Shown piece by piece: positions 4,272 to 19,988 of a stretch of 37,051 bases of DNA; positions within the stretch are counted from its first letter, which is position 1; every line of letters starts with the position of its first letter. This stretch comes from Defluviitaleaceae bacterium (GTDB lineage: Bacteria > Bacillota > Clostridia > Lachnospirales > WRAX01). Both the position numbers and the translations under genes were made by a program. The notes under the pieces are model-generated. The model made no database searches, was not told where the DNA came from, and saw only the letters and a program-made list of their open reading frames with translations. The stretch spans positions 1 through 37,051 of the forward strand of contig WQZZ01000008.1 in assembly GCA_009780485.1 (NCBI GenBank), read 5' to 3'.

Positions 4272-4319
4272 TTGCGATTTTGTACTCCCCAAAAACCGTC
4301 CCACCACCAAAGTTTACCC

Positions 4320-4348: not shown

Positions 4349-4369
4349 ACCACATGGAGGGATTACAAA

Positions 4370-5149: not shown

Positions 5150-5164
5150 TTGCCAATAAATAAA

Positions 5165-5217
5165 CGACAACAAAACGAGTTGCCACCCATTGCATGGTTG
5201 CTCGTTTTTTTGTTGTC
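5165..5217 (+). terminator. Terminator after the first Rpn gene
   Basis: ACGAG (5175-5179) pairs with CTCGT (5201-5205) around a loop that can form further pairs; a run of T follows. The outer GACAACAAAA and TTTTGTTGTC also pair, so it may act in both directions. Confidence 0.65.
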
Positions 5218-5253
5218 AAAAATCGAATCTTATAAAAGGTAAGAAGGTTAATT

Positions 5254-5336
5254 ATGCAACCACTCGCACAGTGGTTGCTGTTTTTATTTCCAAAAACTTG
5301 CATAAACATACAAAATGATTGGAGGATTTTAACAAT
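5254..5336 (+). repeat. Terminator-leader repeat, right copy
   Basis: GCAACCAC and GTGGTTGC stem, T-rich run, CCAAAAAC and TGATTGGAGGATTTTAACA match the copy starting at 4155. Here the leader runs straight into an ATG (5335) and drives the TnpW-like gene, so this is probably the functional original junction. Confidence 0.75.
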
Positions 5337-5781: not shown

Positions 5782-5832
5782 CGATTGAGCAAGGTACGTA
5801 TGATGATAGCCATGCTATCCCCATACACCTTG

Positions 5833-5855
5833 CGAGGGGTTGCTACGCCCCCTCG
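5833..5855 (+). other. Candidate oriT hairpin
   Basis: CGAGGGG (5833-5839) and CCCCTCG (5849-5855) form a perfect 7-bp stem around TTGCTACGC, followed by ACCCCTGTTTAAGACC. A GC-rich hairpin in an AT-rich non-coding stretch of a mobilizable element, just before a relic of the mobC start, is where an oriT would be expected. There is no T-run, so it is not a normal terminator. No nick site can be proven from sequence. Confidence 0.4.
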
Positions 5856-5896
5856 ACCCCTGTTTAAGACCAGAAACCATAGCCCATAGGCTATCC

Positions 5897-5973
5897 AAAA
5901 ACCAAAGCCATTTTACAGACCAACCGTCAAAAACCAAAGCCATTTTACAGACCAGTCATCAAAAGCCAACCCC
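5897..5973 (+). repeat. 32-bp tandem repeat near the candidate oriT
   Basis: AAAAACCAAAGCCATTTTAC plus 12 more bases (5897-5928) repeats at 5929-5960 with three changes, and a partial third unit (AAAAGCCAACC) starts at 5961. Directly repeated short units beside an oriT can be relaxosome protein binding sites. The rest of 5782-6128 holds the hairpin at 5833, the mobC relic and a promoter. Confidence 0.7.
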
Positions 5974-5990
5974 TAAATCGAAAAAAGTTT

Positions 5991-6113
5991 AGGAGGAAAA
6001 TTTTATGACCGCATAAAAATAATTGTAATAATGGATATACACCAAATTTAGATTTTGTAAAAGTTCATAAAAATCCTTATGGGACTTGCATATTGGTGAA
6101 TTTTAATGTATAA
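5991..6113 (+). pseudogene. Decayed copy of the mobC start
   Basis: AGGAGGAAAATTTTATGACC (5991-6010) differs by one base from the ribosome binding site and start of mobC at 9525-9544. The following codons also match (AATAATGGATATACAC against AATAATGGCTATACAC). An extra G after ATGACC shifts the frame to an immediate stop. Without it, 35 residues starting MTHKNNCNNGYT could be read before TAA at 6111. The regulator, peptide and aminopeptidase genes lie between this relic and intact mobC. Confidence 0.6.
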
Positions 6114-6114
6114 T
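6086..6114 (+). promoter_or_regulatory. Promoter of the first HTH-TPR regulator
   Basis: TTGCAT (6086-6091), 17-bp spacer, TATAAT (6109-6114). It shares ACTTGCAT and an ATTGGT in the spacer with the promoter at 7756-7784, which suggests a common operator. Confidence 0.75.
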
Positions 6115-6158
6115 GTCAAAATAAGCACTTGCAAAGGTTACAAGATTGGGGTGAAAAT

Positions 6159-7469
6159 ATGAAGCATAAGCAAGATACCAAAATGAGCAAAGAGCAGAAA
6201 ATCAAGCACGTAAGAATTAAGCAAGGCATATCCCAAGAAACCCTTGGTAAAGGCATTGGTTCTTCAAAATCAAAAATAGGACGCATTGAATGTGAGAAAG
6301 ACAAAAATCAAGATTCCAAATACACAGAAGATGAATTGCGTCTGGCAAAAGAATTTCTTGACATTGAAAACGCACCTTTCACAAATGAAGAACTTGATAA
6401 TTTCAGAAAACGACTATACAGGTGGAATGACTTAACAAAAAACGGTCATCTGGTCGAAGCCAGAAACAGCCAGCAAGAATTTGAGGTTATAACCAAGCTT
6501 GACTTTGAAAAGGATTTGATTTTGCTTTACAAGATGTTTGAAGTTAGACTTTTGTTAAAGGAAAGAAATAATGCTCTTGCAGAAGAAATGTTGATGCTTT
6601 ACAAACCTGAATTAGAAGAAGCGGATAGCGAAAACGGCTACCATTTCCATTACAACATGGGGTCGCTTTATATGTTAAAGTCGGACTTCGAGAGTGCTTT
6701 GGTCTTTTACCTAAAAGCTTATAGTCTTGAAGTTCATGCGTTTGAACGAGAAGTTTTTTTACAATTGAATATCGCCACTTGTTACTCAAAGTTAGGCAGG
6801 TACGTTTTTGCGATAACCTCCTTATTGGAAGCCGAGGACTCATTTAACCACGATAAAACTCATATAGCATGGACATACATAGATAACTTGCTTGCTTTGA
6901 ATCATATTAGGATTGGGCAGATAGAGAAAGGAAGGAAACGCCTTCACGCTTCATTAGAGGAAGCGATTAGGATAAATGATACCGCCTGCATTGCCTATGT
7001 TTATCACAATCATGGCGTTGCTTGCTTTGTTGAAAATAAATACAAGGAAGCAATTGCGTACTTCGACAAAGCCTTTACATACTACAAAGATAACAACGCC
7101 TACTTTCTAGAATGTCACTACTACAAAATCCGTTGCACCATTGCAATGAGAAAAATATCTGATAGCAAAACACTTTTGCAAAATGCCGAAAAACTAGCAA
7201 AAGGAAACGACCATTACACCTTAATGCTAAAATCCCTAAATTCTCTACTGACTTTAAGCAACAAGAATTGCGTCCATTTTATACAGGAAACTACAATCCC
7301 ATATCTGATTGATAAATACGAATATTTCAAGGCTTTGGATTTTTGCAAAGAGCTTGAAAAGGAATTTACGGGAAAAGAAGGTTACAAAGCAAAACTTGCC
7401 GAAATTGTATCGGTGATACGAGATACTCAATATAAAATAGCTTTTGGCGAGGAGGTGATTGTACAATGA
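6159..7469 (+). CDS. HTH-TPR (RRNPP-type) peptide-responsive regulator (436 aa)
   Basis: Residues about 15-65 form an XRE-type helix-turn-helix (IKHVRIKQGISQETLGKGIG, with SKSKIGRIE as the recognition part). The rest is helical with tetratricopeptide-like repeats, for example YHFHYNMGSLYMLKSDFESA, YHNHGVACFVENKYKEAI and YFDKAFTYYKDNN. This is the layout of RRNPP regulators (Rgg, PlcR, PrgX, TprA types), which bind an imported peptide in the TPR domain and change DNA binding. The ATG at 6159 has GGGGTG 7 bases upstream; a later in-frame ATG at 6183 is possible. The stop overlaps the start of a small exported-peptide gene by ATGA, typical of a receptor-pheromone pair. It has a consensus promoter 45-70 bp upstream. 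Targets are not shown, but its own promoter and the one at 7756 share sequence. Confidence 0.85.
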   Translation: MKHKQDTKMSKEQKIKHVRIKQGISQETLGKGIGSSKSKIGRIECEKDKNQDSKYTEDELRLAKEFLDIENAPFTNEELDNFRKRLYRWNDLTKNGHLVEARNSQQEFEVITKLDFEKDLILLYKMFEVRLLLKERNNALAEEMLMLYKPELEEADSENGYHFHYNMGSLYMLKSDFESALVFYLKAYSLEVHAFEREVFLQLNIATCYSKLGRYVFAITSLLEAEDSFNHDKTHIAWTYIDNLLALNHIRIGQIEKGRKRLHASLEEAIRINDTACIAYVYHNHGVACFVENKYKEAIAYFDKAFTYYKDNNAYFLECHYYKIRCTIAMRKISDSKTLLQNAEKLAKGNDHYTLMLKSLNSLLTLSNKNCVHFIQETTIPYLIDKYEYFKALDFCKELEKEFTGKEGYKAKLAEIVSVIRDTQYKIAFGEEVIVQ

Positions 7470-7621
7470 AGAAAAAAATCATATGTGTTGCTCTAACTCT
7501 AGTGACAGTTTTCAGCATTAGTGTTGTTGCGACAGCAGAGGCTTGTGGCGCACAACCCTTCTCTGCACCAATCATCATCACACCAATCATTATTGCCCCA
7601 GACTTAGATACCGATAATTAA
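7466..7621 (+). CDS. Small exported peptide, candidate pheromone of the adjacent regulator (51 aa)
   Basis: This frame overlaps the regulator's stop by ATGA and has GAGGAGGTG 7 bases upstream. The peptide starts MKKKIICVALTLVTVFSISV and continues VATAEA, a clear signal peptide with a likely cleavage after Ala-Glu-Ala. The exported part is about 25 residues: CGAQPFSAPIIITPIIIAP and then DLDTDN. It holds a doubled Pro-Ile-Ile-Ile motif, like the hydrophobic pheromones read by RRNPP receptors. Size, signal peptide, tight coupling to the receptor gene and a terminator 36 bp downstream all fit a PapR/SHP/Phr-like precursor. The mature form cannot be told from sequence. The Cys after the cleavage region could instead point to lipidation. 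Confidence 0.8.
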   Translation: MKKKIICVALTLVTVFSISVVATAEACGAQPFSAPIIITPIIIAPDLDTDN

Positions 7622-7656
7622 TACTTAACAATTGTAAATGATGGCAACCCCCCCTT

Positions 7657-7688
7657 AGAACCGCTAAAATTGGCGGTTCTTTTTTGTT
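7657..7688 (+). terminator. Terminator of the regulator-peptide operon
   Basis: AGAACCGC (7657-7664) pairs with GCGGTTCT (7673-7680), loop of 8, followed by TTTTTTG. Confidence 0.9.
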
Positions 7689-7755
7689 ACTTGAAATACC
7701 CTGTACAGAAAATAACACCCATTTACTAAAAATATGGATTATTTACAAAAAAGAC

Positions 7756-7784
7756 TTGCATTTAATACTGCAATTGGTTATAAT
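7756..7784 (+). promoter_or_regulatory. Promoter of the M29 aminopeptidase with a 300-base leader
   Basis: TTGCAT (7756-7761), 17-bp spacer, TATAAT (7779-7784). The next gene starts at 8093, so the transcript has an untranslated leader of about 300 bases. It contains short hairpins: TTCCC with GGGAA near 7835-7850, CTTGGATT with AATCCAAG near 7895-7920, and CCTAT with ATAGG followed by TTTTATTTT near 7960-7978. The last could act as an attenuator. No ORF of note lies in 7622-8092. Confidence 0.7.
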
Positions 7785-8092
7785 TACAAAAAGACCATTT
7801 TAACTAATAAAATATATAAAAATTAAATACTTGTTTCCCATTTCGGGAATTGTTTCATGCCACTCTAATAAACATTGGGTTGGCTACGATAAACTTGGAT
7901 TGACTGCACTAAAATCCAAGAAATTCACACTCACACTAAAGTTTAATAAAATAACAGCCTATAAATAGGTTTTATTTTGATACTCATTTACAAGCTGGTT
8001 GGGGACTAACAATCTAAACAAATCTCTAAATACCCTATTCAAGCCCAAATTCCAAAAGTAATTAAAATAAATATAATCATTAGGAGGACATT

Positions 8093-9343
8093 ATGAACAC
8101 TATTGTCAAGAAAGAAACAGAAAAAACACTAAGAAATTATGCCAATCTGGTAGTCAAAATCGGAGCAAACGTCCAAAAAGGACAGTTTGTAGTAATCACC
8201 AGCAAGGTGGATTGTGCGTACTTTGCAAGAATGGTGCAAGAATCTGCATTTGATGCTGGGGCTTGTGATGTGGCAATCAACTGGCATGATGAAAAATCAG
8301 CCCGAACCAAGTTTTTGAGAGCAGATGATGAAGTTTTTGACGAATATCCAGAGTGGATGGTAGACCGCCATAAGCAATGGGATGAAAAGGGTGCAGTTTA
8401 CATAAGTATCATTTCAAATGACCCAGATAATTTTAATGGTGTTGACCCAAGCCGTTTAAGGCGTTTTAGCAAGTTGGCAAACTCAAAAAACAAGGCTCAT
8501 TCAGATTTAACTATGGCTAACAAGTTGCGTTGGACGCTTTGTGCTGTGCCATCTCCAGAATGGGCTAAGAAGGTGTTTCCAGAACTTACAGAAGATGAAG
8601 CAATGGAGCGTTTATGGGATTGTATCATAAAGGCTTCTAGGGCTGATGGTGATGACCCTGTGGGGGAATGGAAGAAGCATAGAGAAAGCTTTGTAGACCG
8701 TGTGAGATACCTTAATGAACAGCAATTTGACTTAATTCGTTTTACAAACAGCCTTGGTACGGATATAACCCTTGGTATGCCAAAAGACCATGTTTGGAAA
8801 GGTGGCGGGAGTTTCGATAAGGACGGTATACCTTTTAATCCTAATATCCCAACGGAAGAAATATTTTCAGCACCAGACCGTATGCGGGTTGATGGGCGTG
8901 TGGTTGCGTCTTTGCCTTTGGCGTATCAAGGTAAGTTGGTTGAGGGTATAGACTTGACCTTTGAAAACGGAAAGATTGTTGATTTTAAGGCGAGCAGTAA
9001 CCAAGAAACACTTGCCAATATAATAGAGATGGATGAGGGTAGCGGTAGATTGGGTGAGGTTGCATTAGTTCCTAGCTCATCTCCTATAAATAAGATGAAA
9101 ACGCTGTTTTATAATACACTTTATGATGAAAATGCTTCTTGCCACTTAGCCATAGGAAAAGCGTATCCTAACAGCATAAAAGGCGGGGCTGACCTTTCTA
9201 GTGAGGAATTGCTGAATAGGGGTATCAACACGTCTTTGATTCATGTTGACTTTATGTTTGGCACAGCGGATATGAAGGTTGTTGGCATTAGGGCGGATGG
9301 TAGTGAGGTTGTTATTATTGAGGGTGGGGAATATGTTTTTTGA
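8093..9343 (+). CDS. M29-family aminopeptidase (416 aa)
   Basis: The protein matches the aminopeptidase T/AmpS/PepS family, cytoplasmic metallo-aminopeptidases with two divalent metals. Family landmarks are visible in order: the N-terminal VKIGANVQKGQFVVI strand-turn, GTDITLGMP, NIPTEEIFSAPD with a ligand Glu, DEGSGRLGEVALV with the second Glu, NASCHLAIG with the His, and LIHVDFMFGT with His and Asp. Length is normal for the family. The ATG follows TTAGGAGGAC. It lies in the regulatory cargo module, with a promoter like that of the RRNPP regulator upstream and a terminator downstream. It might trim imported signalling peptides or the RiPP, but it may simply be a housekeeping-type enzyme carried along. 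The catalytic assignment is good; the role is inference. Confidence 0.9.
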   Translation: MNTIVKKETEKTLRNYANLVVKIGANVQKGQFVVITSKVDCAYFARMVQESAFDAGACDVAINWHDEKSARTKFLRADDEVFDEYPEWMVDRHKQWDEKGAVYISIISNDPDNFNGVDPSRLRRFSKLANSKNKAHSDLTMANKLRWTLCAVPSPEWAKKVFPELTEDEAMERLWDCIIKASRADGDDPVGEWKKHRESFVDRVRYLNEQQFDLIRFTNSLGTDITLGMPKDHVWKGGGSFDKDGIPFNPNIPTEEIFSAPDRMRVDGRVVASLPLAYQGKLVEGIDLTFENGKIVDFKASSNQETLANIIEMDEGSGRLGEVALVPSSSPINKMKTLFYNTLYDENASCHLAIGKAYPNSIKGGADLSSEELLNRGINTSLIHVDFMFGTADMKVVGIRADGSEVVIIEGGEYVF

Positions 9344-9423
9344 TAATTCTGAAACGCTCACTTGACAGCCCTAAAATCTAAGGCGATGTATTTTAAGTTA
9401 AATTTCTGCCACAAAACATAGCG

Positions 9424-9465
9424 AAAATGACCACCATTTCTTGGATTTGGATGGTCATTTTAGTA
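9424..9465 (+). terminator. Terminator after the aminopeptidase
   Basis: AAAATGACCA (9424-9433) and TGGTCATTTT (9452-9461) form a 10-bp stem extended by CC/GG inside. With A-run and T-run on either side it can work on both strands. Confidence 0.7.
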
Positions 9466-9538
9466 TGGCGAAATAAGACCTACTTATTAGCCCGTGAGCT
9501 ATGCAAAAATAAAAATCATTTCACAGGAGGAAATTTTT

Positions 9539-10141
9539 ATGACCCATCAAAACAATATCAATAATGGCTATACACATATCAGAGAAGTCCCGACAAATTC
9601 AAGTCTAGAAATAACAAACCTAAGACCATTAAACTCAAGACCGTCAAATATAGCACCACACCCAACTGTAACACCACAAAGACCACAAATACCAACACCA
9701 CAGCCAGACCCACAATCAACCTCGAACACCGCAACACAAGCCGAGAACTTAATACCCACAGAAACCACCCTATCAGGAGTGACACCCGCTAAACCCGCCA
9801 CCAAACCATCCACCCGCAAACGCTCACAACAAGTAATCCTTCGGGTAACGCCCATAGAAAAAGAAAATATCGACAAGAAAAAGTCCGCAACCAAGCACAA
9901 AAGCTATGCGGATTTTTTTATTGATACTATGTCTAGTAAGCGATATGTTACCGTTACTTCTCTTGATGCGGTCTTGACAGAGCTAAAGCATCAAGGTAAC
10001 AACTTAAACCAACTGGCAACCGTTGCAAATGCTACAGGTTCTGTACATTTTGAAAATATCAATGCTACTTTGCGGGAGTATATCAGGGCATACCGCAATC
10101 TGGAGAAGTTGGCTAATGAGGTGCGTTATGGTAATGTTTAG
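9539..10141 (+). CDS. mobC: MobC-type relaxosome accessory protein (200 aa)
   Basis: MobC proteins bind near oriT and help the relaxase open and nick DNA. The C-terminal half (about 95-195) has the family pattern: VILRVTPIEKENIDKK, then YADFFIDTM and ELKHQGNNLNQLATVAN, followed by a helix ending in REYIRAYRNLEKL. The N-terminal 95 residues are Pro/Thr/Gln-rich and look disordered, longer than usual for the family. The ATG at 9539 follows CAGGAGG by 8 bases; an earlier in-frame start has no such site. Relaxase follows 150 bp downstream. A diverged copy of the 5' end lies at 5991. Confidence 0.88.
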   Translation: MTHQNNINNGYTHIREVPTNSSLEITNLRPLNSRPSNIAPHPTVTPQRPQIPTPQPDPQSTSNTATQAENLIPTETTLSGVTPAKPATKPSTRKRSQQVILRVTPIEKENIDKKKSATKHKSYADFFIDTMSSKRYVTVTSLDAVLTELKHQGNNLNQLATVANATGSVHFENINATLREYIRAYRNLEKLANEVRYGNV

Positions 10142-10291
10142 GGGGTATGATGTAGCGACATTTAAGGTGGTGTGTTATGGTGGCGTTTAGAGAATGTGCC
10201 ATAACGTCATTTGCGACAACGTTCAAGAAATTTGGTGTGTATGACATTGCAGAAGCATGGTATGTCGTGTATGACATTGGGGAGGTATGGT

Positions 10292-12007
10292 ATGGCAATA
10301 TTCAGCATCAAAGCACGAAAGAACGGCCCAAAGGCGGGTATTGACTACATAATCGACCCCAAGAAAGCCACTATCACCAGCACACAGTTTTTGGTGGATG
10401 ACTTTGGCATTCGCTCGAATACCGCAGACAATCATGTAAATAACACAGCCCATGACAATCTAACCCACATTCACGCAAATCTTGCGGATAATCACGCAAA
10501 TGTCACAACCAATAATAAAAAACTACCAGACAACCACAAAAACCTTAAAGTTGCCTATGATGAACACCCTAACAATAACATAGACATTGCAACCCATCAC
10601 AGCAACCTTGCAGACAATCACAAAAAACTAGCAGACAACTACGCAAAGCAAATGAAATCCACAGCCCACCGCTTCGGTAAAAACAAAAAAGCTGGTGAGA
10701 GGACATACTACAGCATCATCATATCACCAAATCCCAATGATAATGCCACACCAGAACAATCCCACCAGTTAGCTAGGGAAATTGCAAGACGACTATTCCC
10801 GAAATATGAAGCTGTTATTGCTACCCATACCAATACAGATGATGTACATAGTCACATCATTCTGAATAGTGTCAACTTTGAGGATGGGAAGAAGTTACAA
10901 ATATCAAGAAGCAAGAATGGCTTTGAGAAACACCATGGTTCGTATGGTTGGTATAAAGACCAAGTGCAGGATATAGCCGAGGAATTAGGACTTACCCCCA
11001 CAGATTGGCGGGAGGACACTAGGACAAGACGCATTAAAGAGCGTGAGGGTGAGAAGTTAGGGTTAAAACCCGATTATTCCAGTCATTATGACCAACCCGA
11101 CCACTACCGACAACCCGACCAGCACCAACCCTTACAGCCCACCCAGCCAAGCCATCACACCGAAAGAACTCATTCTACTCAACAAAACCAACCCGACCTT
11201 TCCAACCATCATAGTCAGTATCATCAACTGGACTATAGCTACCAGAATGGTCAAAATAATCAGCGAAACCAGCATTGCCAAAACAACCCCAAAATCCAAC
11301 ATCACAAGCGTAACCAACACACCCATCAAGAACAAGGCATAAAACTCCGTGCTGATGATACAGGGGTTGATTGGGGCGAATTATCATGGAAAGAAAACCT
11401 ACGCCGTTGGATAGATGTAGCCAAGGAACAAACCGCAAGCCGTTCGGAGTTTGAAGCCTATCTCAAAGATAATGCTGGCATAACAATGCCTAGAAACACA
11501 GCGAAGACCGTGAGTTTTAAGCATCCATACCAAACGAAAAACGACACAAACAAAGCGAACTCCACAAATAACACAAACACAAAAAGTACCACAAATACCA
11601 ATAACACCACAACCACAACCATCAGGGGCAACAAACTAGGCGACAACTACACCGCACAGGCAATAGACACCGCCCTAAAAATAACAGCCAAAAGGAGAAA
11701 ATTCAACCATGAATATGAAACTACCAAACAAGCAAGAAACACCGCCACAAACCGCATCAACACCCCAGACCATACAGCACAAGATAATATTGGACGACTT
11801 GTCCATGAGAGTGCTAGAAACCTTAGAGAAGAACAGATTGCAAGACAGCGAAAACTTCGAGAACAGGCTAAACGAGATGCAGAAGCTACTCGCAGAGATG
11901 CAGAAGCAAAACAACAACCAAAACATCAACCTAAACAACAAAATTCGCCAATTACAGAGCCAAAACCACCTATTCAGCCAGACCGTGGCTGGGGTATTGG
12001 CAGATAG
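10292..12007 (+). CDS. mobA: MobA-type relaxase (571 aa)
   Basis: DNA-nicking and strand-transfer enzyme that starts mobilization at oriT. The three-His motif is clear: HTNTDDVHSHIILN with His179, His186 and His188, followed by the conserved helix with HGSYGWYKDQVQDIAEELGL. The N-terminus (MAIFSIKARKNGPKAGIDYI) has the usual strand, but the family's short connector is replaced by about 80 residues of Asn/His-rich repeats (DNHANV, DNHKNL, DNHKKL). A second Gln/His/Asn-rich stretch lies at about 265-350. The start at 10292 has GGGGAGG 8 bases upstream. The last 299 bp overlap the next gene in another frame. The MOBP-like class is inferred from the motif spacing. Confidence 0.88.
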   Translation: MAIFSIKARKNGPKAGIDYIIDPKKATITSTQFLVDDFGIRSNTADNHVNNTAHDNLTHIHANLADNHANVTTNNKKLPDNHKNLKVAYDEHPNNNIDIATHHSNLADNHKKLADNYAKQMKSTAHRFGKNKKAGERTYYSIIISPNPNDNATPEQSHQLAREIARRLFPKYEAVIATHTNTDDVHSHIILNSVNFEDGKKLQISRSKNGFEKHHGSYGWYKDQVQDIAEELGLTPTDWREDTRTRRIKEREGEKLGLKPDYSSHYDQPDHYRQPDQHQPLQPTQPSHHTERTHSTQQNQPDLSNHHSQYHQLDYSYQNGQNNQRNQHCQNNPKIQHHKRNQHTHQEQGIKLRADDTGVDWGELSWKENLRRWIDVAKEQTASRSEFEAYLKDNAGITMPRNTAKTVSFKHPYQTKNDTNKANSTNNTNTKSTTNTNNTTTTTIRGNKLGDNYTAQAIDTALKITAKRRKFNHEYETTKQARNTATNRINTPDHTAQDNIGRLVHESARNLREEQIARQRKLREQAKRDAEATRRDAEAKQQPKHQPKQQNSPITEPKPPIQPDRGWGIGR

Positions 12008-12422
12008 TGTGTCAGCTATAGAAGCGAATATCACACACCATGCCCAAAACACCATAGATACAGTAAGAGTAGATATGTTGACCGAAAACAAGAAAATCTT
12101 CAAAGACAATCAAAAAGCCTTTGAAGAAAGCCGAAAATCCCTCACCGAAAACCATGAACAAGTTAAAAAAGAACAATCCAATTACCTAAAAACAATAAAA
12201 ACCCACCACACCGAAATATCCAAGAAGATGAAAGATTATTCTGTGGGTATTTCGTTATCAGGGTGGCTACTTGTCGCATTGGTTATCGCTATGATGGTGG
12301 CTGTTGCCACGACTAATCTTTGGAATGTGATTATAGCCCTACATTGGGGATGGTGGATTTTGATAATCATTGCTTTGGTTGGGGTTACTTGGTTGATTGT
12401 TTATTGTGTGAGGAATGAATAA
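11709..12422 (+). CDS. Coiled-coil membrane protein overlapping the relaxase gene (237 aa)
   Basis: Residues about 35-180 are a long amphipathic coiled coil rich in Gln, Asn, Glu and Lys. Two membrane segments follow at about 185-205 (LSGWLLVALVIAMMVAVATT) and 213-233. A short charged tail ends in CVRNE. Proteins of this shape follow relaxases in many mobilizable elements (MobB-like) and may anchor the relaxosome at the membrane. The ATG at 11709 has AAAAGGAG about 11 bases upstream, so translation probably begins inside the relaxase gene, giving a 299-bp out-of-frame overlap. The family name is not certain. Confidence 0.75.
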   Translation: MNMKLPNKQETPPQTASTPQTIQHKIILDDLSMRVLETLEKNRLQDSENFENRLNEMQKLLAEMQKQNNNQNINLNNKIRQLQSQNHLFSQTVAGVLADSVSAIEANITHHAQNTIDTVRVDMLTENKKIFKDNQKAFEESRKSLTENHEQVKKEQSNYLKTIKTHHTEISKKMKDYSVGISLSGWLLVALVIAMMVAVATTNLWNVIIALHWGWWILIIIALVGVTWLIVYCVRNE

Positions 12423-12518
12423 TCGGAAGCAACAATTCTTTATCCTTTAGCTATTTGGCACACGACCGTGTAATACTGGTGTTCTGCTATACAATGGACG
12501 GTTGTATGGTTTACCTAC

Positions 12519-12546
12519 TTGACAAGATAATTTCTGGCTGTATAAT
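12519..12546 (+). promoter_or_regulatory. Promoter of the second HTH-TPR regulator
   Basis: Perfect TTGACA (12519-12524), 16-bp spacer, perfect TATAAT (12541-12546). Downstream, TAACATT occurs twice (near 12571 and 12599), a possible operator pair before the ATG at 12617. Confidence 0.8.
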
Positions 12547-12616
12547 TATATAAAGAATAAACACATTTTTTGTAACATTCTGTAAACGCTTTGTTTTATA
12601 ACATTGAGGTGATAAA

Positions 12617-13555
12617 ATGGCCATGTTTCATATAGGCACGCTTATTAAGGAGCAACGAACGGGCAGGGGCGCCACCCTTGACCAGCTATGCAAAGGTATT
12701 TGCCACCGTACAACCTTGATGCGGATTGAGGTCGGCGAACGCACACCTAACAATTTCGTTTTGGCGAAATTGTTAGAACGTCTAGGTTTTCATGCAGAAA
12801 GGTTTTATTTTAGCGGTCAAAGCGAAATAGAACTTCGCTTTTTTAATCTTTACTACGAGATAGAGGGTTGCATCATGGTAGGCGAACTTGCTGATGTCGC
12901 TACCAAAGTCTTCAAACTGGAGCAACTTCATCAAGAGATGAATCGAAGTGAAACGGAAAGCAAAATACGCCAACAAATGATTATGGTTATGAAATGTGCA
13001 TTAGCCCAAAAGGAGAAAGAAGAAGCGTCCAAACGTATTGAGGACGCCAAAAATGCACTTGGATTGACATTAGGTTCATTTAATGAAGTTGATGTATCTA
13101 AGCTGATGATTTCGTATGATGAAATTTCGCTACTCAATATGCTGGCGGCGGCATATGGCGAAAACGGCGAAACGGATAGAGAAATAAATCTACTCTACCG
13201 AACAAAAGAAAGTATGGATAAATATCACATCGACGAATACGAAAAGTCGAGAGGGTACATATTGACACTTTTTAACTTGTCAACTGTTTTGGGATTTGCA
13301 GGGCGACACGAGGAATCTTTGGAAATAACTAATATTGCAATCAAATATTGTGTGATACACAGAAGACTCAACCTTCTCCCTGCCCTAAAATTTAACAAGG
13401 CTTGTTCATTACACTTTTTAGGTAGTGACGAAAACTATAGACGATTAGCCATCGAAGCCGTATACTCACTAAGAAATAACGAGCAGTATACAAGTGCAGC
13501 CAAGCGTAAAGAGTTCGCCGAAAGGGAAATGGGAATCGTATTCCCGTTTTGGTAA
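12617..13555 (+). CDS. Second HTH-TPR regulator, RRNPP/Rgg-like (312 aa)
   Basis: Residues about 5-65 form an XRE-type helix-turn-helix (IGTLIKEQRTGRGATLDQLC, then CHRTTLMRIEVGERTPN and a leucine-rich helix). The remaining 240 residues are helical with TPR-like stretches, for example SLLNMLAAAYGENGETDREI and LFNLSTVLGFAGRHEESLEI. The length is close to Rgg proteins. The ATG follows GAGGTG and a consensus promoter. The gene faces a minus-strand gene for a small exported Cys-rich peptide and stands just upstream of the RiPP operon. In streptococci Rgg-type proteins control radical SAM RiPP operons together with small peptides, so this is the likely local regulator. Its ligand is not known. Confidence 0.82.
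   Translation: MAMFHIGTLIKEQRTGRGATLDQLCKGICHRTTLMRIEVGERTPNNFVLAKLLERLGFHAERFYFSGQSEIELRFFNLYYEIEGCIMVGELADVATKVFKLEQLHQEMNRSETESKIRQQMIMVMKCALAQKEKEEASKRIEDAKNALGLTLGSFNEVDVSKLMISYDEISLLNMLAAAYGENGETDREINLLYRTKESMDKYHIDEYEKSRGYILTLFNLSTVLGFAGRHEESLEITNIAIKYCVIHRRLNLLPALKFNKACSLHFLGSDENYRRLAIEAVYSLRNNEQYTSAAKRKEFAEREMGIVFPFW
13531..13549 (+). terminator. Possible short terminator at the regulator's 3' end
   Basis: GGGAAT (13531-13536) and ATTCCC (13540-13545) with a 3-base loop, followed by GTTTT. It lies within the last codons and is weak. Confidence 0.35.
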
Positions 13556-13591
13556 TCATCGGGGTAACCTGCATTTTAGCTAGCAGTAGGT

Positions 13592-13801
13592 TTACTTATC
13601 AATAGGCTCTCTATCAATATATCGTGAACACCTTGCTTGTGATACCACCTCTTTGCACTCCTGTGACACTTCACAACACTTCGTTTCATTTGCAAAAATT
13701 TGCTTGCCTTGCACAGGTATAGACACCATGACGAGTAGGGTTAAAATTACAACGACTTTATGGCACTTGGTATTCGTTTTTGGGTTTTGAAAAAACTTCA
13801 T
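13592..13801 (-). CDS. Small exported Cys-rich peptide, divergent from the RiPP operon (69 aa)
   Basis: The minus-strand frame has GAGAGGAT 9 bases before its ATG and a consensus promoter at 13853-13880. The N-terminus is basic, residues 16-31 are a hydrophobic core (VVVILTLLVMVSIPVQG), and a possible cleavage follows Ile-Phe-Ala at residue 37. The remaining 32 residues are charged and have four Cys (42, 43, 49, 58). The peptide could be a pheromone precursor read by the adjacent regulator, an immunity peptide for the RiPP, or a second antimicrobial product. It does not resemble the RiPP precursor. Real expression is likely given the promoter and ribosome binding site; the function is open. 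Confidence 0.65.
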   Translation of the reverse strand: MKFFQNPKTNTKCHKVVVILTLLVMVSIPVQGKQIFANETKCCEVSQECKEVVSQARCSRYIDREPIDK

Positions 13802-13852
13802 AACAAATTCATCCTCTCTATAGAAAATACAGAATAACTCATATTTACCATG

Positions 13853-13880
13853 ATTGTAACACGACCTTCCATTTTGTCAA
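13853..13880 (-). promoter_or_regulatory. Promoter of the divergent peptide gene
   Basis: On the minus strand TTGACA (13880-13875), 16-bp spacer, TACAAT (13858-13853). The -35 box overlaps the left end of the 24-bp inverted repeat at 13878-13933. Confidence 0.75.
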
Positions 13881-13933
13881 GGTAGCATTTTAGGCAACAA
13901 GACACGAAGCTTGTTGCCTAAAATGCTACCTTG
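13878..13933. repeat. Perfect 24-bp inverted repeat between divergent promoters
   Basis: The arm at 13878-13901 starts CAAGGTAGCATTTTAGG; the arm at 13910-13933 is its exact reverse complement; the loop is ACACGAAG. The outer ends touch the -35 boxes of the minus-strand peptide promoter and of the RiPP promoter. As RNA on the plus strand it is followed by TTTTTTT, so it can also serve as a strong terminator. An operator and a terminator role are not exclusive. Confidence 0.9.
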
Positions 13934-13959
13934 TTTTTTTCGACAGGAAGTGATATATT
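13931..13959 (+). promoter_or_regulatory. Promoter of the RiPP operon
   Basis: TTGTTT (13931-13936), 17-bp spacer, TATATT (13954-13959) preceded by TGA as an extended -10. The first three bases of the -35 are the end of the inverted repeat. The start codon of the precursor is 65 bp further on. Confidence 0.6.
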
Positions 13960-14023
13960 AAAAGCGGAAATACAATTGTCAGCCAATTATTGGCACTCTA
14001 AGGACAAGAAAGGAGGGTTAACG

Positions 14024-14137
14024 ATGAGAATTTCAAATTTCAAAGCAGAAACAGTACGCACAGTAGTTTCGAGAGTGGCGGGTAGATGCAAAGTTGGAGA
14101 TTGTGCGCAGCGAGCTGAGCAGATGTGCCTTCGCTAA
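14024..14137 (+). CDS. RiPP precursor peptide with three Cys (37 aa)
   Basis: The small gene just before a radical SAM maturase is the expected precursor. The ATG at 14024 follows AAAGGAGGG by 6 bases; an upstream in-frame start at 13931 lies in the promoter and is rejected. The leader (about residues 1-21) is basic and contains MRISNFKAETVRTVVSR. The likely core CKVGDCAQRAEQMCLR has Cys at 22, 27 and 35 (spacing x4 and x7). Cys-rich cores with SPASM-type partners usually gain thioether links, as in sactipeptides and ranthipeptides. There is no double-Gly cleavage site; Ala-Gly-Arg at 19-21 is a possible site. I do not recognise the sequence family. Confidence 0.8.
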   Translation: MRISNFKAETVRTVVSRVAGRCKVGDCAQRAEQMCLR

Positions 14138-14157
14138 GTAGATTTAGTATGTAGTGT

Positions 14158-14215
14158 GGCAGCACTCACTAAAAATGATGTACATATTTATATGTAGACA
14201 TAGTGATGTGCTGCC
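14158..14215 (+). promoter_or_regulatory. Stem-loop between precursor and maturase genes
   Basis: GGCAGCAC plus TCACTA (14158-14171) pairs with TAGTGA, a bulged T, and GTGCTGCC (14201-14215). Inside, TACATA and TATGTA form a second stem. No T-run follows, so it is more likely an RNA-stability or partial-stop element that keeps precursor levels above enzyme levels. Confidence 0.7.
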
Positions 14216-14244
14216 CTACTACAAAAATAGAGGAGGGAAGCTTC

Positions 14245-15420
14245 ATGGCTAGCTTTTGGATTAATTTGACAGATAATTGTAATCTCAATTGCTCCTATTG
14301 TTATCAAAAAGTGCGTAAGTACGGCAATATGACTTTGGAAACGGCAGGTCAGGTTGTGTCAATGATAAAAGAGCGGTGTAAGGTGGTCGGTGCTGAAACA
14401 TTAAAGCTTACTTTTTTTGGAGGGGAACCTCTATTAAATTTTGATGCCCTTAAATACATCGTCGATTCTTTTTCGGACTTTGAGTTTCCAGCAACTTTCC
14501 TAATGACTTCAAACTTCTCGCTGGCTTCTGATGAAATCATAAATTTTCTTGTCAAACACGACTTTGGTATGATGATTAGTATTGATGGGGACGAAGATAC
14601 GCAAGAACTCAATCGTTCATCAGCCGACAAAACTAAGAAACACAATACTTTTTCTTCACTCATTAATGCTATAAACAAATTGAATAAACTTGAGTATGGC
14701 GAAAATTTTCGTCTCGCAAAGGTTATCGCTTCAAACAGTGCCGCCAACCTGAAAAAAGACATAATATTTTTGAGCGAGCTTCACAAAGATATTGTTATTA
14801 ATTTTGATAATAACGTCTATACAGATTGGGAAATAACACCTGAGGACGAGAGGGTTCTGAGAGAAGAACTTAAAAAGGCTTTCGAATGGTATCTAAATGA
14901 TGGACGGACAAAAGGAGTACGTGTTGATTTTTTTGAAGCCTGCTTAGAAAATGTTGCTAATATGTTTATGTGCGGAAGTAGCACGAACTTGTCTAGTTGT
15001 TTGGGGATTGATAGTATCATGCCAACGTTTAGTCCAGACGGTGCCATTCATGCGTGTCATCTTTTGTTTGAGATGTTCGAAAACGAAGAAGGTCAAAAGA
15101 CCACTGAAGAACTTATACATTTGTTGGAGCATAGTGAAGATTATGGAAAATTGAAAAATGAGCAACTTGCTGAAACGTTTAACGGGAGATTTAAGGCTGA
15201 TACGTGTATTGCGTGTAGATATTTTCACTACTGTCGCTACGACTTTATAGATGATTGGGCTTCGGTCTGTTTTTATCGCCTGTACGGAGTTAATACAGGT
15301 ATTGGTCACAGGAAATCAAATTTTACTTCATCTTTCTGTATCAATAGATTTATGAATGACTATATTTTTGAAGCCATCAATAATGGGGAGGTGGATATAA
15401 ATGCTTTACTACAGCAATGA
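14245..15420 (+). CDS. Radical SAM/SPASM peptide maturase (391 aa)
   Basis: The enzyme would modify the precursor peptide by radical chemistry. The N-terminal CNLNCSYC has Cys12, Cys16 and Cys19, the classical CX3CX2C motif for the SAM-binding iron-sulphur cluster, followed by the FFGGEPLL motif near residue 56. The C-terminal SPASM-like region has a Cys, 13 residues, Gly-x4-Cys (SPDGAIHAC), then CIACRYFHYC with Cys321, Cys324 and Cys330, and one more Cys further on, enough for auxiliary clusters. The ATG at 14245 has AGGAGGG 7 bases upstream; an in-frame ATG at 14203 lies inside the stem-loop and is rejected. The gene overlaps the next by 20 bp. The type of link (for example thioether) cannot be read from sequence. 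Confidence 0.92.
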   Translation: MASFWINLTDNCNLNCSYCYQKVRKYGNMTLETAGQVVSMIKERCKVVGAETLKLTFFGGEPLLNFDALKYIVDSFSDFEFPATFLMTSNFSLASDEIINFLVKHDFGMMISIDGDEDTQELNRSSADKTKKHNTFSSLINAINKLNKLEYGENFRLAKVIASNSAANLKKDIIFLSELHKDIVINFDNNVYTDWEITPEDERVLREELKKAFEWYLNDGRTKGVRVDFFEACLENVANMFMCGSSTNLSSCLGIDSIMPTFSPDGAIHACHLLFEMFENEEGQKTTEELIHLLEHSEDYGKLKNEQLAETFNGRFKADTCIACRYFHYCRYDFIDDWASVCFYRLYGVNTGIGHRKSNFTSSFCINRFMNDYIFEAINNGEVDINALLQQ

Positions 15421-16099
15421 TATAACTGCAAACATTGCACTAGACAACTTCATAAAGACGCAACTTAATAAAGATTCAATAATCAAAAACAACTTTGTTT
15501 ATACAGATGTAACTGAGAAATGTATTGTTGATGCCGTGTCATACCTTAAAGATTACAACGATTATCTTTATTATCTATTGAACGATTTGACTGGTGTTTT
15601 CTTTAACTATGACATCTCACTAACAACATTTGATACTAGCCAAGATTTAGATTTGTCAACATTAAAACGATTTTCTTATGTAAAAGAGGGCTTTTTTTCT
15701 AAAGGAAATTGTGTGACGCTGTATTTCTCTTCTGACCACATATCAAATCCTTTGGATGTGCTTTATTCATTAAACAATATGCTAACATTGTCCTTTGAAT
15801 ATTTCGATGTAGTTATGGACTACCTGTTATTCGAGGACAAGATTGTATACTATATGCTATTTAGGTACAGCCTTTTATTGGAACCCAATTTAAGCGAAAT
15901 TATGAAAATTAAAGACCTTATAAATGATTCTTTCGAATTGACTCATTGCAAAGACAAGGACAACATTTTTCCAATCATGCAAGTGAAATTTGAGAACGAA
16001 CATATGTCTAGTTTCCCTGTTTTGAAAGTAGGAGACAGGCTTCTGTTCGAAGGCGTATCGCTACAATATCCATTATATCCTACATCGGACTGTAATTAA
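15401..16099 (+). CDS. Unknown RiPP-operon protein (232 aa)
   Basis: The ATG at 15401 lies within the 3' end of the maturase gene (20-bp overlap) and has GGGGAGG 8 bases upstream, so the two are translated together. The protein is acidic and rich in Tyr, Phe, Leu and Asp, with no signal peptide and no clear membrane segment, and with no metalloprotease or kinase motif. Short aromatic blocks such as YNDYLYYLLNDLTGVFF stand out. Its place between maturase and exporter suggests a partner in peptide recognition, maturation, leader removal or self-protection. I do not recognise a family. Confidence 0.8.
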   Translation: MLYYSNDITANIALDNFIKTQLNKDSIIKNNFVYTDVTEKCIVDAVSYLKDYNDYLYYLLNDLTGVFFNYDISLTTFDTSQDLDLSTLKRFSYVKEGFFSKGNCVTLYFSSDHISNPLDVLYSLNNMLTLSFEYFDVVMDYLLFEDKIVYYMLFRYSLLLEPNLSEIMKIKDLINDSFELTHCKDKDNIFPIMQVKFENEHMSSFPVLKVGDRLLFEGVSLQYPLYPTSDCN

Positions 16100-16162
16100 T
16101 GTGAATAGAGTTATTTTATAACTTATTCTTAAAAACGTAGAGGTAGCCAAGGAGGTGCGAAC

Positions 16163-17752
16163 ATGAAAGACATCACCAAAATAATGCTTGGCAGTGTCGG
16201 AACGAAAGTCATGCTTATATTTTATGCCTTGCTATCAGTTGGTTCTGGGTTTTTAATTATACAAGGTAACGAAATGTTGAGAGGGGTTTTTGACAATTAT
16301 TTACTAACACAAGTGTACGGTGTGTTCGGCTTCCGATTGGCGACCACCACTTCTGTGTTTCTGCTTATTTTTGGGGTACATATTTTGAGTGAGTTTCTTT
16401 TGCAACGCTTTACATGGGACGGACAAGCTCGCTTGGCAGAACATTATATGAGGGGGTTATTGCGTAGTAAATTTAGCTTTTTCACGAAGGAAGAACCTCC
16501 CAAGATTTGGAGTGACTTGACCACGGCAACACAAGGTACAGCACATCTTTATCAATCATTAGTTTCGACTTTCGATACATTTGTCAGGTTTGTTTTTTAT
16601 GGAATTGTAGTGTTTAGCGTGGATTTTTACGCCGGTCTTTTTACATTGGTTGCATTACCCATATATTTTTTAGCTAACTGGGGTGCGCATAAAAGGTTTT
16701 ATCCTATTCAAGAAAGAAGGATGAAGGCTATGGGTGAGTTGAGTGTGGCCGCTAACGAATCTTTCACGGACGTCGCCAATGTAAAGGCAAAAAATTCATA
16801 TGACTTTTTTGTAGGACGTATCAACAAATCACAGCAAGTCACCTCTCGGTTGATGTGTAATTTTAATGTTTTGTATGCGTACATAAGCAATATATCGAAT
16901 CTCGTCAGCATTATTGCCCCGCTTTTGATATTGTTTGGTGCCATGCAGTTTTCTGACACGCTGACTCTTGATGCTGGCGTTGTTCTGGTGCTTTACATAA
17001 ATATCCCACTACTTTTGAGCAGTTTCCAAGGTTTTCACAATTTATATATAAATTACAAATCTAGAAAGCCTTTAGTCGAAAAACTTAAAAGCTTTGCGGA
17101 CATCCCCGCAGAGCAAAGTGGAAGTACGACAATAAATACTTTTGAAAGTTTAAGCACATATGGTGTAAAAGTCAATTTTGAAGGTGAACGCAACGTCACC
17201 GTCCCCGATTTTACCATAGTAAAAGGTGAAAAGGTAATGTTTTCTGGGGAGAGTGGTGTAGGAAAGTCTACCATCTTTAATATAGTGATTGGATTGATTG
17301 AAGATTACGAAGGGGATATAACTATAAACGGCGTGAACCTGCGTGAAATCGACAAGGATTCACTTCGTGAAGTATTCGGTATAGCTTTCCAATCTGTAAA
17401 TGTTATGACCCTCACATTGAAGGAAAACATTTTATTGGGAATAGAAAGTGATGACATTAACGAAATTATAAAACTTACAAACCTAAAAACCCAATTAGAA
17501 AGCAAATCAGAGCAAACCCTTAATAGTAAGGTGCTGTCGGGTGGGGAAAAATCCCGCCTTGGACTTGCCCAAATGCTGATTAGAAATCCCGAGGTCATAT
17601 TTATTGACGAAACATTTTCCAGTCTGGATGAGGAGATGGAAAAACAGATAATCACAGGAGTGTTTGAAAAATACACCGACAAGACCATTATCTGCATTAA
17701 CCATCGCAGCGGAAGTCGTGCCTTTTTTGAAAGAGTAATTGAGTTCAATTAA
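16163..17752 (+). CDS. ABC exporter, fused permease and ATPase (529 aa)
   Basis: Residues about 1-310 are a type I exporter membrane domain with six hydrophobic stretches (for example IMLIFYALLSVGSGFLII near 12-32). The ATPase domain follows: Walker A GESGVGKST near 363-371, Q-loop FQSV, signature LSGGEKSRL, Walker B EVIFIDE with SSLD, and the switch His in INHRS. No C39 peptidase domain is present at the N-terminus, so leader cleavage must come from another protein. It ends the RiPP operon, 63 bp after the unknown gene, with AAGGAGGTG before the ATG. The likely role is export of the modified peptide, and possibly self-protection. A stand-alone drug exporter is less likely given the context. 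Confidence 0.92.
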   Translation: MKDITKIMLGSVGTKVMLIFYALLSVGSGFLIIQGNEMLRGVFDNYLLTQVYGVFGFRLATTTSVFLLIFGVHILSEFLLQRFTWDGQARLAEHYMRGLLRSKFSFFTKEEPPKIWSDLTTATQGTAHLYQSLVSTFDTFVRFVFYGIVVFSVDFYAGLFTLVALPIYFLANWGAHKRFYPIQERRMKAMGELSVAANESFTDVANVKAKNSYDFFVGRINKSQQVTSRLMCNFNVLYAYISNISNLVSIIAPLLILFGAMQFSDTLTLDAGVVLVLYINIPLLLSSFQGFHNLYINYKSRKPLVEKLKSFADIPAEQSGSTTINTFESLSTYGVKVNFEGERNVTVPDFTIVKGEKVMFSGESGVGKSTIFNIVIGLIEDYEGDITINGVNLREIDKDSLREVFGIAFQSVNVMTLTLKENILLGIESDDINEIIKLTNLKTQLESKSEQTLNSKVLSGGEKSRLGLAQMLIRNPEVIFIDETFSSLDEEMEKQIITGVFEKYTDKTIICINHRSGSRAFFERVIEFN

Positions 17753-17758
17753 AGATGC

Positions 17759-17808
17759 AATAGAGCAATACTCAAAAACCGTTTTTGAGTATTGCTCTAT
17801 TTTGTTTT
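17759..17808 (+). terminator. Terminator of the RiPP operon
   Basis: A perfect 20-bp stem (17759-17778 with 17782-17801) with a 3-base CCG loop, followed by TTGTTTT. The remaining 177 bp to attR hold no convincing gene. Confidence 0.9.
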
Positions 17809-17984
17809 ACACCACTTATTATGGAAAGGCAATTTCTTCAAGAGTTTCGAAATACTCTACGCAATTTACCCACTTACAAACACCCTGTTACGTAGGTTGT
17901 TTGTAAAAACTCTTGTCTATATTAAATGCTTTTTTCACCAACCAAACATTTTTAGAAGTTTTCAAAATTACACCTTGACAAAAG

Positions 17985-19988
17985 CATCCTAAGTCGGAGC
18001 TTTACGCAAGCACCGCAGAGTATTTGCGAGATAAAGGATATGTGGTTAAGGTATTCAACCTAATATCCCCTGAAAACTCCGATAGTTGGAATTGCTTGCG
18101 GGAGATTGAAGGTGACAATCAGGAGCTTATGGCGCAGATATTTTGTGATGTAGTTATCCGAAATACTCTGCTTAACGGCAAGATGGATCCATTCTGGGAC
18201 ACAGGTTCCATTTCTCTACTCAAAGCCCTGTGTTTGTATGTGGTGCAGATATATCCAGAAGAAGATAGAAACATTGGCGAGGTTTACAAGTTACTTGAGA
18301 ATGTAGCTTCTACCAACGGTGGTAGTGGTTTGGGCATGAGTCTAGGGAGTAGTGGCGGTAGTGGTCTAAAAGCTGCATTTTCTGCCCTACCCTTTGGACA
18401 TTCCGCTAAAGCCCCGTTTAACATCTTCCAGCAAGCTAGTGATAATGTACAATCAGGCATCATCATAGGTCTTGCCAACCGCATCCAAGTGTTTCAAATA
18501 GAAGCCTTACGAGCAATTACAAGCCATAGTGACGGCATAGACTTAACCCTGCCAGGCAAACAAAAATGTGCATATTTTTGTATCACAAGCGACCAAGACT
18601 CAACATTTGACTTCTTGAGTTCGCTATTTTTGTCCTTTTTGTTTATTAAGTTGGTAAGGTTTGCAGATGGTCAACCTAACCAATCTTTACCTGTACCTGT
18701 TCACCTACTGGCAGACGAACTGGCCAACATAGGTGTCATACCTGACCTAACCAAGAAAATCTCCACAGTACGCAGTCGCAAAATCAGCATGAGTGTGATA
18801 TTCCAAAATATTGCACAAATGCAGAACCGATACCCCGATAATGCTTGGCTTGAGATAATCGGGAATTGTGATACCCAGTTATTTTTAGGTTGTACCGATG
18901 AGTTAACTGCTAAATTCATCTCCGACCGAACAGGTGAGGTGACAATCGGTGTGGAAAGTACCGCTAAGGAAATACGTTCAATACGATTAAGCAACTATGT
19001 GCCTTCACACAGGGAAGTCACATCCATAGGGAAGCGAAAGCTATTAACTCCCGACGAGGTACTTAGATTACCCCGTGATGATGCTCTCGTGATATTTCGT
19101 GGGCAAAAGGTGTTGAAGGTTAGAAAGTTTGACTATACCAAGCACCCAGAAGCCAGGAAGTTGCGGGACTGTAATGCTAGGGATTATGTTCCTAACTGGC
19201 GGGTGGCAAATGTAGATGATGAGAGTTCAGGTGGGTGTAACCACATCGCAAAAGTGGGTACGATTGGTCACGAACAACGACAGAAGGATACTTGCAATCT
19301 AGAGGTCAGTAACATTTGTATGTACGATATGAATGGCGCGGTTGTTGCGGATGACGCAAACGGAGCAAATGATAAAAATGGTGTAAATGTCAGCAACACA
19401 AGCGATACTGATTTAACATCCTACGTAATACCTGTGGCAAAAGCGATTAGAGTTGCAAAGTCCGCCGAGTCCACCAAAGGAGTTATTTCCGCCAAGTCAG
19501 TAAAGCCGATAAAGTCAGTAAACCTCATTAAGACTAGTAAGTCTGACGAGTCCGATAGAGACACCGAGTTTTCCGAAACCATCGAACCTATCAAAGCTAC
19601 CAAACGTGGCAGAGCTACCAATAAAGCCGAAACACCAATCCAAATATCCCTATCAGATCCAGCAATCACAATACCTTTGAGTGTTACGAAAACAGGCAAA
19701 CATACTCAGTTGTCCTTGTCCGAATTGTCTGCCGCATCTACTACTACGACCAGATTTGTGGATGCACCTAAATCGCTTGCAATCAAACCCCTTTCAGATG
19801 TTGGCGGCTCATCTTCCCTGACACCCCCACCAACAGCAGTAGTAGTACCACCATCATCATCAATACTGCCACCACTACCTTCCACACGAACAAATGTGCC
19901 TGCAAACTCACCCAAAGCATCTGCCTTAAAAGACAATAACGAAGCCTTCAAGCAGATTCGTGTTGAGGATTTACTGGCAGATTTGTAG
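17985..19988 (+). CDS. virD4: VirD4/TraG-type coupling protein, C-terminal part after the IME
   Basis: Continuation of the gene begun at 247. From the repeat at 17986 the frame reads (Asp)-Pro-Lys-SELYASTAEYLRDKGY, a typical coupling-protein Walker B region, and continues with the hallmark LLADELANIGVIPDLTKK, STVRSRKISMSVIFQNIAQ and IIGNCDTQLFLG blocks. Joined to the left part, the protein would have about 906 residues. The core ends near 19220; the last 250 or so residues are low-complexity, rich in Ser, Lys, Thr and Pro, and end in EAFKQIRVEDLLADL. This tail is longer than in most VirD4 proteins. The fragment has no start codon of its own with a ribosome binding site; the TTG at 18024 is an artefact. 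It is silent as a coupling protein unless the IME excises. Confidence 0.92.
   Translation, partial: HPKSELYASTAEYLRDKGYVVKVFNLISPENSDSWNCLREIEGDNQELMAQIFCDVVIRNTLLNGKMDPFWDTGSISLLKALCLYVVQIYPEEDRNIGEVYKLLENVASTNGGSGLGMSLGSSGGSGLKAAFSALPFGHSAKAPFNIFQQASDNVQSGIIIGLANRIQVFQIEALRAITSHSDGIDLTLPGKQKCAYFCITSDQDSTFDFLSSLFLSFLFIKLVRFADGQPNQSLPVPVHLLADELANIGVIPDLTKKISTVRSRKISMSVIFQNIAQMQNRYPDNAWLEIIGNCDTQLFLGCTDELTAKFISDRTGEVTIGVESTAKEIRSIRLSNYVPSHREVTSIGKRKLLTPDEVLRLPRDDALVIFRGQKVLKVRKFDYTKHPEARKLRDCNARDYVPNWRVANVDDESSGGCNHIAKVGTIGHEQRQKDTCNLEVSNICMYDMNGAVVADDANGANDKNGVNVSNTSDTDLTSYVIPVAKAIRVAKSAESTKGVISAKSVKPIKSVNLIKTSKSDESDRDTEFSETIEPIKATKRGRATNKAETPIQISLSDPAITIPLSVTKTGKHTQLSLSELSAASTTTTRFVDAPKSLAIKPLSDVGGSSSLTPPPTAVVVPPSSSILPPLPSTRTNVPANSPKASALKDNNEAFKQIRVEDLLADL
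17986..17992 (+). repeat. Right attachment repeat (attR core, ATCCTAA)
   Basis: Second copy of the 7-bp core. Immediately right of it GTCGGAGC restores the coupling-protein reading frame. Immediately left, CTTGACAAAAGC is element sequence. Confidence 0.85.

Follow-up and report, generated by a model that had tools for sequence, protein, structure and literature searches.

A candidate quorum-sensing-controlled radical SAM peptide cluster carried by a mobilizable element of a Defluviitaleaceae bacterium

The DNA analysed here, referred to as the window, is a stretch of 37,051 nucleotides from a Defluviitaleaceae bacterium (contig WQZZ01000008.1 of assembly GCA_009780485.1). Positions 12617-17752 hold a locus for a ribosomally synthesized and post-translationally modified peptide (RiPP) with genes for a regulator, a small exported peptide of 69 aa, a precursor peptide of 37 aa, a radical S-adenosylmethionine (SAM) maturase, a protein of 232 aa and an ATP-binding cassette (ABC) exporter. 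In our judgement, this locus is probably a RiPP cluster under quorum-sensing control that is carried as cargo by an integrative and mobilizable element (IME). The main lines of evidence, all drawn from sequence, are the predicted fold of the receptor, the recurrent pairing of receptor and propeptide genes, the layout of a long palindrome and two promoters, and the element together with its insertion site. An earlier annotation made by a model (the original prediction) had proposed a peptide-regulated RiPP locus with a secreted signal candidate and an ABC exporter, and our analysis supports these points.

All six open reading frames (ORFs) of the original prediction were found at the coordinates that it gave, and all six are intact. 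They form three transcription units, i.e. the regulator gene (plus strand), the gene for the 69-aa peptide (minus strand) and the precursor operon (plus strand). Thus, the predicted final terminator is present (17759-17801, plus strand, strong), but the locus is not a single unit. Similarly, the gene for the small exported peptide, which had been described as divergent, is divergent from the precursor gene but convergent with the regulator gene. No known RNA family was found in the window.

The receptor and its candidate signal propeptide

The regulator gene (12617-13555, plus strand) encodes a protein of 312 aa and is preceded by a promoter with 12 of 12 consensus matches (TTGACA-16-TATAAT, 12519-12546, plus strand). 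In a single-sequence search, PlcR was the top match in the PDB (E 2.4e-6) over the helix-turn-helix (HTH) part only, and the Pfam scores were slightly under the cut-offs (22.8 vs 23 for HTH_3; 18.3 vs 26.5 for RNPP_C). With a profile of 14 regulator homologues, PlcR again came first, now over the whole length (E 1.9e-21). Moreover, the AlphaFold model of the regulator (mean predicted local distance difference test score, pLDDT, 89.8) had PlcR-PapR as its best structural match (3u3w, E 6.7e-8), ahead of Rgg2 and ComR. The protein has the features of the PlcR/TprA branch of the RRNPP family, i.e. an N-terminal HTH, a C-terminal domain of the tetratricopeptide repeat (TPR) type and a predicted PlcR-like fold. 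Because the profile search and the fold match both place PlcR first, we conclude that the regulator is, by sequence and modelled fold, a PlcR/TprA-like peptide receptor and not an Rgg-like protein as originally proposed. An Rgg receptor paired with a short hydrophobic peptide (SHP) was not found at the locus: the regulator best matches PlcR, and the propeptide is a 69-residue peptide of the Sec type.

This propeptide (13592-13801, minus strand) has four Cys in its exported part. The neighbourhoods of regulator homologues were compared with those of 187 control genes from these loci, using a filter for small ORFs of 35-80 aa on the opposite strand with an ATG start, a ribosome site, a basic start followed by a hydrophobic stretch, and a stop codon located between -30 and +120 nt relative to the stop codon of the tested gene. 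Such a convergent secreted ORF was detected for 9 of the 16 regulator homologues and for 1 of the 187 control genes (Fisher p = 8e-11). A tenth propeptide was recognized by inspection in locus L030, where the ribosome site GGGGG caused the filter to miss it. The propeptides in related genomes are 48-69 aa long, and their C-termini are mostly acidic and Pro-rich; those of the window's genus in loci L027 and L028 have PF[HN]YK in common. A gene for a secreted propeptide adjacent to the receptor gene, as looked for in RRNPP systems, is present in the window and recurs in relatives. In total, these observations strongly support the 69-aa peptide as the putative precursor of a secreted signal, as the original prediction had suggested.

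Two of the related loci were recorded as observations in their own right. L027 (contig C56, 7073-8560), which is in the window's own genome, is a second receptor-propeptide-palindrome module and is divergent from a gene for an exported peptide of 64 aa that is rich in Gly and has a single Cys. L028 (genome G009, contig C5, 7243-10385), which is in the same genus, is a decayed sister locus, in which a TGA codon interrupts the regulator, the propeptide, the palindrome and the ABC gene are retained, and scars resembling insertion sequences lie in the expected place of the precursor and the maturase.

Precursor, maturase and predicted product

The precursor gene (14024-14137, plus strand) has an AGGAGG site upstream and encodes a peptide of 37 aa, MRISNFKAETVRTVVSRVAGRCKVGDCAQRAEQMCLR. 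When the intergenic stretch was shuffled, any ORF with such a site arose in 1.3% of shuffles and a comparable ORF with at least two Cys in its last 20 residues in 0.12%. The peptide has three Cys and a CX3D motif (CKVGD, residues 22-26) of the kind seen in PapB substrates, although one such motif is weak evidence on its own; searches for close relatives of the peptide found none. As the original prediction had anticipated, the precursor, the 69-aa propeptide and the 232-aa protein are unlike known families, and none of them has a match in Pfam, NCBIfam or PHROG.

The maturase gene (14245-15420, plus strand) encodes 391 aa with a CX3CX2C motif. Its start is most likely the ATG at 14245 behind AGGAGGG, and the GTG at 14203 was rejected in favour of this ATG. 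Ribosome sites are also found upstream of the precursor and exporter genes. The locus has the composition of a radical SAM RiPP cluster, i.e. a short precursor ORF beside a CX3CX2C enzyme and an exporter. In direct scans of viral contigs, plasmids and genome contigs, the maturase had no relatives or matched only distant radical SAM proteins; among 392 genomes of the order, the sole sizeable relative is in locus L060 (genome G149, contig C10). This relative belongs to the PapB family (382.7 bits, cut-off 340) and adjoins a 37-aa peptide with two CX3D motifs. The L060 maturase has its N-terminal domain in another frame, and the upstream region holds an ATP-grasp gene and an ORF for a 39-aa peptide.

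By sequence, the window maturase is nearest to the PapB/CteB thioether group, although below the PapB cut-off: PapB is the best family model, and CteB (5wgg) is the best sequence match in the PDB. The substrates of PapB and CteB are peptides with Cys, in keeping with the precursor in the window, and the product may be ranthipeptide-like. PapB joins Cys to Asp or Glu and tolerates CXnD motifs with n = 0-6 (PMC9413430). Given this tolerance, the CKVGD motif and the PapB relatives, a thioether between Cys22 and Asp26 is our leading guess for the cross-link. In our view, a sactipeptide, with links from Cys to the alpha-carbon, or a peptide with some other C-C or C-S linkage is rather unlikely as the product of the enzyme. 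Such a product would fit with the many RiPP maturase models that score above noise, with the streptosactin exporter GggC among the models listed for the ABC protein, and with the presence of an acidic residue at PapB spacing for just one of the three precursor Cys; however, the best family model, the best solved relative, the CX3D motifs beside the nearest relative in L060, and the acceptance by PapB of Glu and of variable spacing all point to the thioether.

The gene for the orphan 232-aa protein (15401-16099, plus strand) overlaps the maturase gene by 20 bases. Its AlphaFold model is unusable (mean pLDDT 32.5), no relatives emerged from the same direct scans of contigs and plasmids as for the maturase, and across the class the only relative is a partial one in genome G014, which matches the C-terminal half (35% over ~92 residues) and lies directly before a homologous ABC gene. 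The pairing of the 232-aa protein with the exporter is therefore not unique to the window. In this G014 locus (L005, contig C16, 5107-8089), which has just the C-terminal half of the protein and no radical SAM gene, the ABC gene is followed by a gene for an S66-type carboxypeptidase. The 232-aa protein could be a recognition partner for the maturase, an immunity protein or an exporter subunit.

According to family searches, the exporter (16163-17752, plus strand, 529 aa) lacks a peptidase domain. Its ABC clade occurs in 8 of the 392 genomes of the order. The exporter was rejected as a marker of RiPP loci because many copies of the clade stand alone without RiPP genes; L051-L053 and L055-L059 are solitary exporters of this kind.

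A shared palindrome and the proposed circuit

A perfect inverted repeat with 24-bp arms and an 8-nt loop lies between the propeptide gene and the precursor gene (13878-13933) and reaches the -35 boxes of two promoters that diverge from it. The propeptide promoter (TTGACA-16-TACAAT, 13853-13880, minus strand, 11 of 12 consensus matches) abuts it on one side; on the other, the candidate promoter of the RiPP operon (TTGTTT-17-TATATT, 13931-13959, plus strand) has a weak -35 box and is placed with respect to the palindrome as its counterparts in relatives are. Of 10 systems with a propeptide, 9 have an inverted repeat (arms of 17-29 bp) in the gap that separates the propeptide gene from the divergent target; in the exception, L024, the regulator is interrupted and a contig end is close by. 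By contrast, arms of at least 17 bp were detected after the regulator in none of the six systems without a propeptide. Such arms were also absent from the 18 other divergent intergenic gaps, and in dinucleotide shuffles the arms reached at most 13 bp (0/360 trials reached 17). Within the window's genome, a genome search found the half-palindrome at this locus alone, and further receptor sites elsewhere in the genome were rejected on this basis.

It is improbable, but worth weighing, that the palindrome is simply the terminator of the regulator gene, that the convergent small ORF encodes a secreted peptide with an effector or immunity role rather than a signal, and that the regulator senses something else. 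The window's hairpin precedes TTGTTTTTTT and is scored as a terminator, and equally long hairpins, mainly terminators, are found in the same loci in 3 of 66 co-directional gaps (two test loci omitted) and 3 of 11 convergent gaps. However, no T run follows the hairpin in L022, L023, L026 and L034, and the hairpin is missing wherever the propeptide is missing. Moreover, in the eight loci that were measured in detail, the palindrome begins 60-76 nt upstream of the start codon of the propeptide and has promoter halves at both edges (16 sides, mean 8.9 of 12 consensus matches; for 2000 random draws, mean 7.3, sd 0.24, maximum 8.19). Finally, the predicted fold of the regulator is that of a peptide receptor. 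We read the palindrome as a candidate shared operator of an autoinducing quorum-sensing module.

The same control module was found beside genes for a radical SAM enzyme, a short Cys-containing peptide and an ABC protein in two more loci. In L054 (genome G077), the peptide has 33 aa and two Cys (...NNCPVNNFAAGCGK); in L022 (genome G014, contig C7), it has 27 aa and three Cys (...NNCQCTNECPSG), and the radical SAM enzyme was read in two pieces. Because the enzymes in both loci are closer to CefB, Clo7bot or TIGR04463, the module combines with unrelated maturases.

We propose a mechanism in which the 69-aa propeptide would be exported by the Sec system and cleaved outside the cell, and a short fragment, probably C-terminal, would re-enter by an oligopeptide permease; three OppA-type binding proteins are encoded in the window's genome. 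The re-imported fragment would be bound by the PlcR/TprA-like receptor, which would act at the palindrome and jointly switch on the propeptide gene and the operon for the precursor, the maturase, the 232-aa protein and the exporter. Control could be by activation or by relief of repression, both of which are compatible with an operator in contact with the -35 boxes; TprA2 is a repressor in the absence of its peptide (PMC5436883). The maturase would cross-link Cys of the precursor, most likely by one or more thioethers, e.g. from Cys22 to Asp26. Because the ABC protein has no peptidase domain, the leader would be removed by a separate protease encoded outside the cluster, and the ABC protein would export the presumably bioactive product. 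The IME also carries a gene for an M29-type aminopeptidase (8093-9343), which may trim leader or signal peptides.

Several observations weigh against parts of this proposal. A T run follows the palindrome in three loci (that of the window, L028 and L054), in which a role as terminator is also possible, and the covariation of regulator and palindrome is only weakly positive (Mantel test, r 0.42 with p 0.03 by Pearson and no significance by Spearman). The first examples were already known when the propeptide filter and the palindrome test were devised. For the 69-mer, the precursor and the whole 232-aa protein there are no full-length relatives, and these three frames are supported by their context. 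With the PapB model (NF047865), the maturase scores 106.7 bits, far from the cut-off of 340, and its frame opens just upstream of the start, which leaves no space for an N-terminal recognition domain. Finally, L028 and L005 have the homologous ABC gene and lack the maturase and the precursor. That the cluster is degraded or non-functional, or that the 37-aa ORF is not the substrate, seems improbable, even with decayed loci in the same genus and family (L028, L005) and a precursor without relatives, given the intact frames, the ribosome sites before the precursor, maturase and exporter genes, the two consensus promoters in the locus and the low chance of such a precursor ORF.

The mobile element and comparison with known systems

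The RiPP locus adjoins the right end of a mobile element. The gene for the VirD4/TraG protein (traG) of an integrative and conjugative element (ICE) is split, its first part ending at ~970 and its remainder resuming at ~17990, and the 7-bp direct repeat ATCCTAA is present at both boundaries (965-971 and 17986-17992, plus strand). When rejoined across the element, the flanks read GESLIVTDPKSELYASTAEYLR (TDPKSELY), and in an uninterrupted traG homologue from another genome of the family 5 bases separate the end of the match to the first part from the start of the match to the second. Between the boundaries lie genes for a large serine recombinase (1232-4144, plus strand; Resolvase, Recombinase, Zn_ribbon_recom and DUF4368), a NikA/MobC-like mobilisation protein (9494-10141, plus strand; PF21983, PF05713) and a MobA/VirD2-type relaxase (10211-12007, plus strand; PF03432). 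We therefore conclude that the element is a 17.0-kb serine-recombinase IME inserted in the traG gene of an ICE, which confirms the originally predicted carriage by an IME. No transfer-channel genes were found inside the element, in which not every small ORF was searched. At 965-17992, mobile elements are thus nested, the IME within the ICE, and the coupling-protein gene of the ICE is disrupted. The IME encodes a second, larger HTH-TPR protein (446 aa, 6129-7469), whose TPR repeats give a better Pfam match than the repeats of the RiPP regulator.

The source genome has 2.04 Mb in 169 contigs and is 85.7% complete. As judged from the ABC gene, its closest named relatives are termite-gut Defluviitaleaceae assemblies (survey PMC7024585), and a streptococcal origin of the locus was ruled out on this ground.

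We tentatively suggest, as a possibility that we would not yet call probable, that these loci represent an undescribed branch of peptide quorum sensing in Defluviitaleaceae and relatives, in which a receptor, a convergent Sec-type propeptide and a single, very long palindrome for two symmetric divergent promoters form a module with varied secreted products, including at least three unrelated radical SAM clusters, and in which the 232-aa protein replaces the missing recognition domain of the maturase. If our interpretation of the locus is correct, density control of radical SAM peptides would extend beyond streptococci to Clostridia of the gut, where it would recur with a different branch of receptors. 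The layout of receptor, propeptide and palindrome would be a sequence signature that locates signal, operator and target operon together and also reveals RiPP clusters overlooked by family models. Moreover, a self-contained, communication-controlled peptide cluster would reside on a mobilizable element, and its signal could report the abundance of the element's carriers. An arrangement like that of this locus was not found described under the terms used in a literature search, which was limited and does not prove absence.

IMEs with serine integrases in traG of ICEs have been reported from streptococci (PMC5357655). The element in the window resembles them in its serine recombinase, its relaxase, the disruption of the VirD4 gene and the lack of detected transfer-channel genes; it differs in its occurrence outside streptococci and in its cargo of RiPP quorum sensing. 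The maturase has PapB of the freyrasin system (PMC9413430) and CteB (5wgg) as its nearest radical SAM families, and the precursor has the CX3D motif in common with them. In contrast to PapB, the enzyme is under the family cut-off and has no space for the N-terminal recognition domain, and its precursor has one CX3D motif instead of the six in the PapB system.

In streptococci, loci for radical SAM RiPPs are under Rgg/SHP peptide control (PMC13361665, PMC12445099). These loci are like the one described here in the receptor superfamily, in the grouping of genes for a precursor, a radical SAM enzyme and a transporter at a single locus, and in the logic of density-dependent RiPP production. However, the receptor in the window is nearer to PlcR, the convergent Sec-type propeptide takes the place of a short hydrophobic peptide, the precursor is unrelated, and the orphan 232-aa protein occupies a slot that can hold a recognition-element gene in other loci. 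The arrangement is closer to TprA/PhrA and TprA2/PhrA2 of Streptococcus pneumoniae (PMC5436883), in which the gene for a PlcR-type receptor and, on the other strand, that for a small peptide are placed beside a RiPP operon, there for a lanthipeptide, and ABC transporter genes. Compared with TprA/PhrA, the window has a radical SAM cluster in place of lanthipeptide genes, a 69-residue propeptide with four Cys, a long palindrome between divergent promoters, carriage by an IME and a host of the Defluviitaleaceae type. Altogether, peptide-controlled RiPP loci are already known in streptococci, and what is new here is how the parts are combined, together with the long palindrome between the two promoters, the group of hosts, the orphan protein and carriage by an IME.

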